The notes under the pieces: generated by a model | The model's input: the letters and a program-made list of their open reading frames with translations, nothing else | Database searches by the model: none | What the model was told of the DNA's origin: nothing | Shown: piece by piece, positions 1,942 to 11,103 of the stretch | Layout: each line of letters opens with the position of its first letter | Position numbering within the stretch: the stretch's first letter is position 1 | IMG/VR virus record: IMGVR_UViG_3300042402_004024 | Span: 1 to 22,370 of that record | Direction: 5' to 3' (one strand) | Origin: a virus | DNA: 22,370 bases | Position numbers and translations under genes: made by a program

Positions 1942-1973
1942 TTTGGAGGATTGAAAAAACCTCCTTATCTTTG
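1942..1973 (+). promoter_or_regulatory. Bacteroidetes sigma-A promoter for the RNA cluster
   Basis: TTTG (1942-1945), a 20-bp spacer and TATCTTTG (1966-1973) match the Bacteroidetes -33/-7 consensus. Transcription should start around 1978, seven bases before the tRNA-Phe gene. The spacer holds an inverted repeat GGAGG...CCTCC (1946-1964) that could terminate the FKBP transcript or bind a regulator. Confidence 0.8.
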
Positions 1974-1984
1974 TCTCATCAAAG

Positions 1985-2083
1985 GGTAAGATAGCTCAGG
2001 AGGAGTACTCATATGATACTCCCAAGGTAGAGCAGCGGAAGTGAAGATCCGTGTGTCGTGTGGTTCGATCCCCACTCTTACCA
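1985..2083 (+). tRNA. tRNA-Phe(GAA) with a 27-nt hairpin inserted in the D-loop
   Basis: The acceptor GGTAAGA (1985-1991) pairs perfectly with TCTTACC (2076-2082); discriminator A2083, then C2084. The D-stem GCTC...GAGC is intact, but where a normal D-loop has two or three bases, 27 extra occur, containing GGAGTA and TACTCC as a hairpin with a TCA/TGA extension. The anticodon arm is GCGGA...TCCGT with an eight-base loop (AGTGAAGA) instead of seven, so there is one extra base 5' of T33; the anticodon GAA follows. The T-arm has one extra T in its 5' strand (GTGTGG versus CCCAC). Length is 99 nt against about 73 usual. The conserved ends and the promoter directly upstream argue for expression. 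It could be a functional expanded tRNA, a decoy, or a decaying gene. Confidence 0.75.
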
Positions 2084-2203: not shown

Positions 2204-2245
2204 CTGTCCCTCCGGGTTTTTGTGGTAGGTGTTTGAGGGGGACAG
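2204..2245 (+). ncRNA. Long hairpin between the tRNA-like RNA and the pseudoknot RNA
   Basis: CTGTCCC (2204-2210) pairs with GGGACAG (2239-2245), and TC (2211-2212) can extend with GA (2235-2236), closing a loop rich in G and T. The hairpin follows the tRNA-like element by six bases and precedes the larger RNA by three, so it may be a domain of that RNA or a processing boundary. It is not followed by a T-tract, so a terminator is unlikely. Confidence 0.5.
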
Positions 2246-2408
2246 CCGGGTTGGTAGTAGTAAGGCGTAGGCCGACATTCTGGGAGAGCAGAGTCGCAAA
2301 GGTACACACTAAGTAGCTCTCTAATGGTGTGTGAAGCGTGATACGTAAGTTGGAAAAGCGGGATTCCTGATACAGTCGGTCACTACCAACCTTTTTTTAT
2401 TTTTTTAG
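2246..2408 (+). ncRNA. Novel structured RNA with pseudoknot, ending in a T-tract terminator
   Basis: The body is closed by GGTTGGTAGT (2249-2258) with ACTACCAACC (2382-2391), a perfect 10-bp helix. Directly stacked on its 3' strand is GGCCGAC (2270-2276) with GTCGGTC (2375-2381), 7 bp with one G-U. Inside, GAGAGC (2284-2289) pairs with GCTCTC (2316-2321), and ACACAC (2304-2309), in the loop of that helix, pairs with GTGTGT (2327-2332): an H-type pseudoknot. A weaker GGAA/TTCC hairpin lies near 2352-2367. T-rich sequence (2392-2406) follows, so the closing helix may also act as terminator. It lacks the marks I know for tmRNA (no tag ORF, no TTCGA T-arm), RNase P RNA and 6S RNA. Function is unknown. 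Confidence 0.65.
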
Positions 2409-4285: not shown

Positions 4286-4289
4286 CAAA

Positions 4290-4357
4290 GTAGACCTTAA
4301 AAAGGGCCCTTCCGTCTCTGCGTGAGCGGCTTGCTGGGCCCGGGTCTACCTCTTTTT
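4290..4357 (+). terminator. Three-tier GC-rich hairpin with T-run: terminator or small structured RNA
   Basis: GTAGACC (4290-4296) pairs with GGTCTAC (4343-4349); GGGCCC (4304-4309) with GGGCCC (4336-4341); and CCG-T-CTC (4312-4318) with GAGCGG (4324-4329) around loop TGCGT. Tail CTCTTTTT follows. It lies four bases after the C that follows tRNA-Met, so it probably ends the Glu/Met tRNA transcript. The extended, internally bulged form is longer than a plain terminator and could be a stable small RNA. Confidence 0.6.
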
Positions 4358-4745: not shown

Positions 4746-5297
4746 ATGTTTAAATGTGATAAAATACGAAAGTTAGAATCATTCTATGTTGTCGAAAACT
4801 TTTTAAGTATAGACGAAGTAGATATGATTAGAAATCATTGGGATACTTTAGAATGGGGTCCTCAAAAAATTACTTGGGGTCGTGAAGATCCGAAAATAAC
4901 ACCTATTAGTACCAAGTTTAGAATTTGCAATGTTTGGGGTATACCCACAAATAAATTTGAATTCTTAGAACAAAAATCTTCCGAAGTTTTCAATTGTTTA
5001 TATGAAGAAGGGTTCAAATTTTATGACAAATTTGCAGTACACGAATACCCATTAGGTGGTCACCACGTTAGACATTTTGATCATTTATCTGATGATAATA
5101 CTCACCGTGATTTAATCATAAGTGTACAACTTTCTGACAAAAGCGAATACGAAGGTGGTGAACTATTGGTTTCTGATAATTCAACACCACAAAAAAAAGG
5201 ATCTGCAATTATCTACAAATCTATGGATTTTCACATAGTGAAGGAAGTAACAAAAGGTAAAAGATATTCGATCACCATTTGTGGAGGTCCAAAGTAG
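4746..5297 (+). CDS. 2-oxoglutarate/Fe(II)-dependent oxygenase (prolyl-hydroxylase-like), first of three
   Basis: This 183-aa protein has the double-stranded beta-helix signature of 2OG-Fe(II) oxygenases: HHVRHFDHLSD gives the H-x-D iron ligands, EYEGGELLV is the usual strand after it, and the distal His (MDFHIVKEV) and the 2OG-binding Arg (GKRYSITI) follow. It resembles the P4H/PKHD type that hydroxylates protein side chains; a nucleic-acid or small-molecule target is possible. The start is taken at ATG 4746, because an in-frame upstream extension would run through tRNA-Gly. Its stop TAG (5295-5297) lies inside the acceptor of the next tRNA. Two divergent relatives occur at 13904 and 19765. 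Confidence 0.87.
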   Translation: MFKCDKIRKLESFYVVENFLSIDEVDMIRNHWDTLEWGPQKITWGREDPKITPISTKFRICNVWGIPTNKFEFLEQKSSEVFNCLYEEGFKFYDKFAVHEYPLGGHHVRHFDHLSDDNTHRDLIISVQLSDKSEYEGGELLVSDNSTPQKKGSAIIYKSMDFHIVKEVTKGKRYSITICGGPK

Positions 5298-5368
5298 AAG
5301 TAGCTCAGTGGTAGAGCAATCCCATTTATTGGGACGTGACGTGATAGGTTCGATTCCTGCCTTCTACA
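5294..5368 (+). tRNA. tRNA with anticodon TTA (UAA/ochre-decoding candidate)
   Basis: The acceptor GTAGAAG (5294-5300) pairs perfectly with CTTCTAC (5361-5367); discriminator A5368, then C5369. The D-arm GCTC-AGTGGTA-GAGC is canonical. In standard numbering the anticodon arm is ATCCC-ATTTATT-GGGAC with four clean pairs and an A-C mismatch at 27-43; the loop puts TTA at 34-36, which would read UAA and, by wobble, UAG. T37 is unusual, since a purine is normal. The variable loop is eight bases with a tandem ACGTG duplication (5334-5343). The T-arm is TTCGATT-looped with a weak outer pair. Genes here use TAA and TAG as ordinary stops, so this is either a tuned suppressor or a decayed tRNA. Confidence 0.65.
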
Positions 5369-5382
5369 CAAAATAAATTAAT

Positions 5383-9680: not shown

Positions 9681-11103
9681 AAAACTGATATTATTTTTAT
9701 TTTTCATTTTTGGAATAGGTTTGTCCGTTTTCGGGCAAACCTATTCTTATACTTATGTAGACCCTTGCACGGGAATACCAAATACAATCCAACTTTCTTC
9801 AGCCTCAGGAACCGTAACTATGTTTTATGGTGGACAATACAGAACTTTTACTTTTACCGAATTACAACAAGGATCATATGACACTTGGGTTGCTAATATA
9901 AATGCACTAGCACCATCAGGATCAAATCCTTGTGCAGGTAATGCTGGTCCTGTTACCAACAACTTCAATAATATATTAGCCAATAGTATGACAGGTAATA
10001 TAACTAACATTACCAACATAGTTTCTATGGCAGCTTCTTTGGGTAGTTCGATGACAGGTGCAGCTTCAACTGCAGGTGGCGTAAGTTCAACAACATCAAC
10101 CAACTCAGACTCAGATAATAACAACTCGAATAGTAATAACAACACTAATAACTCAGGTGGGTCAGGAGGAAGTAATTCAGGTGGATCAGGAAATTCAGGA
10201 GGAAGTAACTCAGGTGGATCAGGAAATTCAGGAGGAAGTAACTCAGGTGGGTCAGGAAGTACTGGTGGTGGTAATGGTGGTCAAACAAGTGGAAGTACTA
10301 ACCAACCAACTCAAGGTGGTTCCAAAGGACAATCTCAAGGACAAAATGTCTCTGGTGGTTCACAATCTGAACAAGGCGGTGCTTTAGGTGAAATGAATTC
10401 AACCTCAGCATCTGGTGGGTCAACAGAATCAAGCGGTGGTGGAGGAAAAAAAAGTAACTCTGAAAGAATAAGTAGAGGCGCCCTTATCGGAGCTGCCGAT
10501 TTAGTTATAATTAGGAACGATAGTCTTATTACGAAATCAGGTAATGATAATGTAAAAATTAATTCATCATTAACTCACGTTAACACAAAACAGACAATCA
10601 TTAAAGGCGTAAATGTTAACTACCAAACGGGTGTCAGTATTTTAAACTTAACACTTTATGGGTCTTATAAGAAAAAACATTATATGTTAATAGGATCAAA
10701 CTCTTCTATGTATAATTTTAGACGTGATTGGTTTAATACCACATCAATTCTTGCTTCTCAAAAAGCATCTAAAGTTACATTAATGGCTGGTACGAATTAT
10801 ACTTTCGGTCAGATGGGTAAAGGTAATTTTGGAAACTGGTCAATTATTGGTGGTGGATTTACAAATTTTAAAGGAGGTAAAAGTTTTGGGGCAAATATTA
10901 TGTTACTTGGTGTTTATTCTCCTTATATTTTCTATTATGATGGACAATGGTATAAGAGTGGTATTCTTTTCATACCTTTAATAAATACAGATTTCAAAGT
11001 TACTGATAAATTCAAGTGGAGTATTAGTTTTGCGGGTACTTATCAATTAAACAGTAATATCTTGAACTACCAAATCGCTACAGGTGCAAAAATGTTATTA
11101 TGA
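9670..11103 (+). CDS. Secreted Gly/Ser-rich protein with outer-membrane-barrel-like C-terminus, 477 aa
   Basis: A signal peptide (KKLILFLFFIFGIGLSVFGQ) is followed by a folded N-terminal part with an Asn/Thr-rich segment (about 25-130), a long Gly-Ser-Asn-rich linker (about 140-265) with perfect 11-residue repeats, and a C-terminal region of about 190 residues with alternating aromatic beta strands (NLTLYGSYKKKHYMLIG, TLMAGTNYTFGQ, WSISFAGTYQL) typical of an outer-membrane beta barrel. It could be a passenger displayed on a barrel, or a partner of the CsgG-like lipoprotein directly upstream, which overlaps its start. The stop overlaps the start of the lectin gene (ATGA). Function is inferred from layout only. 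Confidence 0.7.
   Translation: MVGKKLILFLFFIFGIGLSVFGQTYSYTYVDPCTGIPNTIQLSSASGTVTMFYGGQYRTFTFTELQQGSYDTWVANINALAPSGSNPCAGNAGPVTNNFNNILANSMTGNITNITNIVSMAASLGSSMTGAASTAGGVSSTTSTNSDSDNNNSNSNNNTNNSGGSGGSNSGGSGNSGGSNSGGSGNSGGSNSGGSGSTGGGNGGQTSGSTNQPTQGGSKGQSQGQNVSGGSQSEQGGALGEMNSTSASGGSTESSGGGGKKSNSERISRGALIGAADLVIIRNDSLITKSGNDNVKINSSLTHVNTKQTIIKGVNVNYQTGVSILNLTLYGSYKKKHYMLIGSNSSMYNFRRDWFNTTSILASQKASKVTLMAGTNYTFGQMGKGNFGNWSIIGGGFTNFKGGKSFGANIMLLGVYSPYIFYYDGQWYKSGILFIPLINTDFKVTDKFKWSISFAGTYQLNSNILNYQIATGAKMLL
10156..10260 (+). repeat. In-frame 33-bp tandem repeat (11-aa Gly/Ser linker)
   Basis: Two identical 33-bp units lie at 10180-10212 and 10213-10245, each encoding GGSGNSGGSNS, flanked by a truncated 24-bp unit at 10156-10179 and a partial unit from 10246. 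Being a multiple of three, gain or loss of units keeps the frame and would only change linker length. Confidence 0.9.

Follow-up and report, generated by a model that had tools for sequence, protein, structure and literature searches.

The window analysed here, a 22,370-nucleotide stretch of viral DNA (IMG/VR record IMGVR_UViG_3300042402_004024, positions 1 to 22,370), carries a real, uncatalogued structured RNA under selection, as judged from comparison of its sequence with those of its relatives. On the same comparison, the RNA is a member of a structured-RNA family that is new and so far uncatalogued. The first-pass annotation had proposed an unassigned structured phage RNA at this place and had named an Rfam search and a covariation analysis over homologues as checks. 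Both were run: no significant Rfam family was found on the RNA, many homologues were recovered and their paired positions covary strongly, and the proposal was upheld.

Relatives and covariation

Folded as a single sequence, the element is ordinary in energy (z = -0.99; 31 of 200 shuffles folded equally well or better), and the case therefore rests on the comparison of relatives. The first of these (L002; loci carry L numbers) lies on a 113-kb viral contig that was reached by a protein search with the open reading frame just downstream, and its homologous RNA stands directly behind an altered tRNA-Phe. Further loci were pulled from viral contigs by patterns of the shared core, and coding false positives were removed. 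In total, 94 homologous loci were found, giving a family of about 95 members; the model R1 recognised 80 loci including the window, then 14 more, and then the divergent L150. Most members are about 130-190 nt long, and some are longer with insertions.

The member contigs reach 393 kb, and phage records searched whole contained one strong R1 match per record. The family is carried by large, mostly uncultured phages. BLAST with four members detected no homologue in cultured phages (only chance or tRNA/promoter matches), and BLAST with one member detected none in plasmids. The pattern had no match in 297 Bacteroidota genomes, and R1 had none in four huge-phage records (634-735 kb), a Tenacibaculum phage and T4 (stricter filters). 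The pattern TGGGAGAGC..CACTAAGTA together with a scan of genome contigs added no family members, and a literature search with the motif strings of the RNA returned only unrelated papers.

The structure was scored on alignment A2, which holds 45 sequences. It paired 94.7% of cells compared with 79.7% in shuffles, and two-sided changes were seen in 237 cells compared with 66.4 in shuffles. The covariation score was 0.457 against 0.179 after shuffling, a value that none of 500 shuffles reached, and sliding the partners by 1-3 columns lowered the pairing to 29-54%. With a tree calculated from all columns, we counted 72 double-change events in P1, P2, PK1 and hairpins A and B (5-13 in the slid controls); with a tree from the unpaired columns only, the count was 122 (11-23 in the slid controls). 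P1, P2 and PK1 lay outside the patterns that recruited the alignment members, and hairpin A lay outside the main pattern. A coding origin of the element was rejected in view of the two-sided changes and the many length changes. The plus strand was assigned as the RNA strand because P2 contains G-U pairs, which would correspond to A-C in the opposite strand.

Extent and fold of the RNA

The span originally claimed, 2204-2408, does contain the structured RNA, but the true extent, from P1 to P1', is shorter (Table 1). A leader hairpin at 2204-2245 was considered as part of the RNA and rejected: in most relatives the RNA starts 0-3 nt after a tRNA, and in L068, where a matching tRNA-like 3' end lies upstream, the RNA follows it without any hairpin.

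Table 1 Coordinates of the RNA, its parts and the elements before and after it in the window.
Feature	Positions	Strand	Remarks
Promoter-like TTTG-N20-TATCTTTG	1942-1973	+	from sequence; before the altered tRNA-Phe
tRNA-Phe with D-loop insertion	1985-2083	+	Rfam tRNA, 37.6 bits, E 1e-5
RNA element, P1 to P1'	2249-2391	+	R1 match 2247-2391, 124 bits, E 1.2e-24, the window being one of the 45 sequences used to build R1
P1 5' strand GGTTGGTAGT	2249-2258	+	pairs with 2382-2391; 10 bp
PK1 5' strand GCG	2265-2267	+	P1/P2 junction; pairs with 2295-2297
P2 5' strand	2270-2276	+	pairs with 2375-2381; 7 bp
Hairpin A	2279-2292	+	stem 2279-2282/2289-2292 (TCTG/CAGA), loop GGAGAG 2283-2288
Candidate kissing-loop strand GGAGAG	2283-2288	+	loop of hairpin A; pairs with 2317-2322
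PK1 3' strand CGC	2295-2297	+	segment after hairpin A; pairs with 2265-2267
Hairpin B	2304-2332	+	stem ACACAC 2304-2309/GTGTGT 2327-2332
Candidate kissing-loop strand CUCUCU	2317-2322	+	loop of hairpin B; pairs with 2283-2288
Unpaired segment GAUUCCUGAUA	2362-2372	+	invariant in the 45-sequence alignment, partly because the search pattern included it; some divergent members have AGAUACC
P2 3' strand	2375-2381	+	directly abuts P1' on the 3' side
P1 3' strand ACTACCAACC	2382-2391	+	pairs with 2249-2258
T-tract after P1'	2392-2408	+	from sequence; 2392-2398, then more T

The 10-bp closing helix, the 7-bp helix without a 3' spacer and the terminal T-tract described by the first-pass annotation are all present in the sequence, the helices being P1 and the adjoining P2 and the T-tract following P1. 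In the 45-sequence alignment, two-sided changes occurred in 10/10 pairs of P1 (87.1% of cells paired) and in 7/7 pairs of P2 (98.7%), and in the R1 family test the two helices jointly had changes on both sides in all 17 of 17 pairs. P1 kept its pairing with wholly different letters in L138 (AAATGTCT/AGACATTT) and L150 (AACAGTATTA/TAATACTGTT). No spacer column exists between P2' and P1' in the alignment, and from this direct abutment we infer that P1 and P2 stack coaxially.

A second pseudoknot, PK1, had been missed earlier. It paired in 97.8% of cells of the 45-sequence alignment, with two-sided changes in 2/3 pairs, and accounted for 6-7 double-change events on the tree. The variants in the alignment are mostly GCG/CGC, GUG/CAC and ACG/CGU; by eye, the divergent members have GAG/CUC (L131, L132 and L135), CCG/CGG (L139) and AGG/CCU (L138).

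For hairpins A and B the picture differs from the H-type pseudoknot that had been claimed. The GAGAG/CTCTC pairing is present, and one of the two interleaved helices, 2304-2309/2327-2332, was found as claimed and is the stem of hairpin B. The other, 2284-2289/2316-2321, is better placed at 2283-2288/2317-2322, where C2289 is left to pair with G2282 in the covarying hairpin A. In the same 45 sequences, hairpin A had two-sided changes in 4/4 pairs (91.5% of cells paired) and hairpin B, whose loop holds CUAAG and CUCUCUAAUG, in 2/6 pairs (98.1%). GGAGAG/CUCUCU paired in every row (100% of cells), being near-invariant with changes on one side only. We prefer to read it as a candidate kissing contact between loops A and B, which would fit better than a simple H-type pseudoknot because hairpin A covaries beneath it.

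This contact may be made within one molecule or between molecules. ROOL and GOLLD are phage or prophage RNAs found near tRNA islands (PMC12286853), and if the kissing loops paired between molecules, the present RNA could be an RNA-only assembly unit whose oligomers are a small counterpart of the ROOL/GOLLD cages. The complementarity of the loops, kept in 100% of cells, and a genomic niche like that of ROOL and GOLLD (PMC12286853) are consistent with such oligomers. However, the two loops are near each other in one molecule, so that intramolecular pairing is at least as likely, and ROOL and GOLLD exceed the RNA several-fold in size, with neither Rfam model matching it; we regard this explanation as unlikely.

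The invariant unpaired letters comprise AAGGGUACAC, CUAAG, UAAUG, GAAG and GAUUCCUGAUA, an apparent conservation that is inflated by the use of the core as a search pattern too. Two resemblances of these letters were set aside. A match of GGAUUC to the 3' strand of the tRNA T arm was rejected because divergent members have AGAUACC; pairing of AAGGA with the anti-Shine-Dalgarno sequence was rejected because the window, L007 and L009 have CUAAGUA.

Genomic setting

In the sequence around each locus, tRNA genes were present at 80 of 80 loci of the first model search, with a tRNA within 60 nt upstream at 54 and within 60 nt downstream at 68 of them. Typically 0-3 nt separate the RNA from the preceding tRNA and 3-6 nt from the following one. 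The adjoining tRNA varies (Arg, Leu, Cys, His, Met, Trp, Phe and others), and with so many different neighbours the RNA is therefore tied to the array and not to one tRNA. The usual distance to a tRNA is 0-6 nt, and a few divergent members stand apart: L135 has no tRNA within 6.4 kb, and the nearest tRNA to L137 is 1.4 kb off. L139 and L089 lie just behind promoter-like boxes (TACATTTG/TATATTTG). These divergent members show that the RNA is an independent gene. No linkage to a protein gene was found, and at the one stand-alone locus examined the flanks were homing endonucleases and a DnaB-like helicase.

In the window, the transcription from a consensus promoter proposed in the first-pass annotation would fit the element at the head of Table 1, which resembles the Bacteroidota-type promoter consensus and is probably where the transcript starts. 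The altered tRNA-Phe is probably the first cistron of a putative unit that, going by the order of elements, would continue with a tRNA-like element and the RNA and end in the T-tract after P1', where transcription in this genome likely terminates. The tRNA-like element (2092-2197) has a long variable arm, and in L068 the RNA is preceded by a 3' end that matches that of this element. A hairpin is inserted in the D loop of tRNA-Phe in both phages, the window (1985-2083) and L002 (1629-1726).

P1/P2 followed by a T-tract, as in the window, L068 and L104, would also be expected if the RNA acted in cis, as a terminator or as a processing spacer between tRNAs. In most relatives, however, a tRNA follows 3-6 nt after the RNA without a long T-tract, and a terminator or spacer needs neither a covarying pseudoknot nor about 40 invariant letters. 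Because tRNAs follow so closely in most arrays, action in cis fits worst among the alternatives and we consider it highly improbable.

Other RNA genes were seen in these phages. RNase P RNA matches were obtained in 3 of 17 records. Small RNase P RNAs lie in the phage tRNA arrays of L007 (9492-9680, minus strand), L008 (10969-11169, minus strand) and L146, all below the Rfam cut-off with E of about 1e-6 to 1e-14. By eye, another is present in L009 at about 9882-10043. L007 holds a tmRNA gene (929-1353) together with the new RNA and an RNase P RNA. Matches to bS21 were found in 5 of 13 records at E<=0.001, with 2 of 13 above the Pfam cut-off. For freshwater phages with bS21, Bacteroidota hosts are predicted (PMC9723584), and the promoter style agrees with this.

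Several further observations concern the window itself. Positions 1-58 match the Rfam freshwater-1 RNA (RF02979; 62.9 bits, E 1.6e-13), which is cut by the 5' end of the window. A tRNA-Leu-like gene at 195-405 has a D-loop insert that resembles an acceptor/T-arm mini-tRNA, and a tRNA called at 5294-5369 with anticodon TTA is a possible ochre suppressor. A second small candidate RNA, GCCCTTCCG...CGGCTNGCTGGGC, lies at about 4287-4350 between tRNA-Met and tRNA-Gly; by eye it occupies the same place in L007, and its closing helix changes.

Proposed role and comparison with known systems

We propose that large phages carry the RNA as a free-standing small gene acting in trans, usually an extra cistron of the tRNA array, and that the RNA would be matured by tRNA nucleases and would bind, through its rigid core, one partner, likely in the tRNA or translation machinery; we put the probability of this reading at roughly 0.5. 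The tRNA-maturation nucleases would cut the RNA out of the array transcript: RNase P acting on the next tRNA would make its 3' side, and its 5' side would arise when the 3' end of the preceding tRNA is matured. Hairpins A and B may be held against the P1/P2 stack by PK1 and the kissing loop, and a single conserved partner would bind to the rigid surface made up of the invariant unpaired letters. Most likely this partner would belong to the tRNA or translation machinery, and the RNA might retune or protect that machinery during infection. We favour such a partner because of the company that the RNA keeps, namely tRNAs and sometimes phage RNase P RNA, tmRNA and bS21; a shared pathway is only suggestive, because most of the searched records lack RNase P RNA, tmRNA and bS21.

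The same fold and surroundings bear on two other functions. Ribozyme activity, cleaving either the tRNA-array transcript or the RNA itself and thereby helping tRNA release, would agree with the compact double-pseudoknot fold, the long invariant unpaired stretches, the variable peripheral hairpins and the location inside tRNA arrays. Still, no Rfam ribozyme family matches at E<=10, the sequence around P1 is unconserved and offers no obvious cleavage site outside P1, and L135 and L137 are not beside a tRNA, which leaves this idea a slim chance. Alternatively, the RNA could counter a host defence enzyme directed against tRNAs or translation, serving as its decoy or inhibitor through an invariant surface that mimics the target of the enzyme. 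Its encoding with tRNA sets in phages and its invariant unpaired surface on a fast-changing scaffold point in this direction, but by eye there is no likeness to a tRNA arm or anticodon loop, and an anti-defence RNA is expected to vary at the recognition surface; the chance of a decoy is just as slim.

Returning to the proposed trans-acting gene, we suggest tentatively, at somewhat less than even odds, that it represents a new RNA class with its own fold (P1/P2 coaxial stack, PK1 and A-B kissing loop) and a trans-acting part in the phage-borne translation/tRNA apparatus. If true, this would be a function new for phage RNAs. Phage tRNA islands are known to hold large orphan RNAs (ROOL and GOLLD) and, in T4, two stable RNAs; what is added here is a compact family of about 95 members with unusually strong covariation, of a size that suits SHAPE, crystallography and cryo-EM. 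Should its target be tRNAs, ribosomes or tRNA-directed defences, the RNA would be a tractable system for studying why large phages pair RNA genes with tRNAs.

The comparison with catalogued RNAs was made with Rfam 15, which covers tmRNA, RNase P, 6S, SRP, GOLLD, ROOL, raiA, the known ribozymes and phi29 pRNA. The window gave no gathering-level match on the RNA and nothing at E<=10 there, the typical member L065 gave only bxd_1 (13.7 bits against a cut-off of 75), and the divergent L138 gave chance-level matches only. The mismatch to tmRNA, 6S, RNase P and SRP RNA noted in the first-pass annotation was thus borne out. When R1 was applied with filters off to T4 69.5-73.5 kb, rnaC/rnaD did not rise above noise, and the whole T4 record was also without a match. 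By the tests run, the RNA is not T4 rnaC/rnaD, GOLLD, ROOL, tmRNA, RNase P or SRP RNA, nor is it 6S.

Housekeeping-type RNAs, the phage RNase P RNA and tmRNA, are encoded in the arrays of some of these phages as well, but they are separate genes in the same genomes (L007 and L008) and the new RNA matches neither model. The phi29 pRNA is a small phage RNA with a terminal closing helix that works by loop-loop pairing. The new RNA is likewise small and closed by a terminal helix, and may share the loop-loop pairing, but it differs in its junction and loops, lies in tRNA arrays and has no Rfam match. The T4 rnaC/rnaD (species 1 and 2) are stable RNAs of 119-139 nt at the end of the phage tRNA cluster; rnaC, however, has a tRNA-like T arm, and both fold otherwise than the new RNA. 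ROOL and GOLLD are much longer (GOLLD often >800 nt), with other sequences and secondary structures and no Rfam match of the RNA to them, but like the new RNA they are phage-encoded, lie near tRNA islands and have an elaborate pseudoknotted structure. By niche, ROOL, GOLLD and the T4 stable RNAs are the closest systems.
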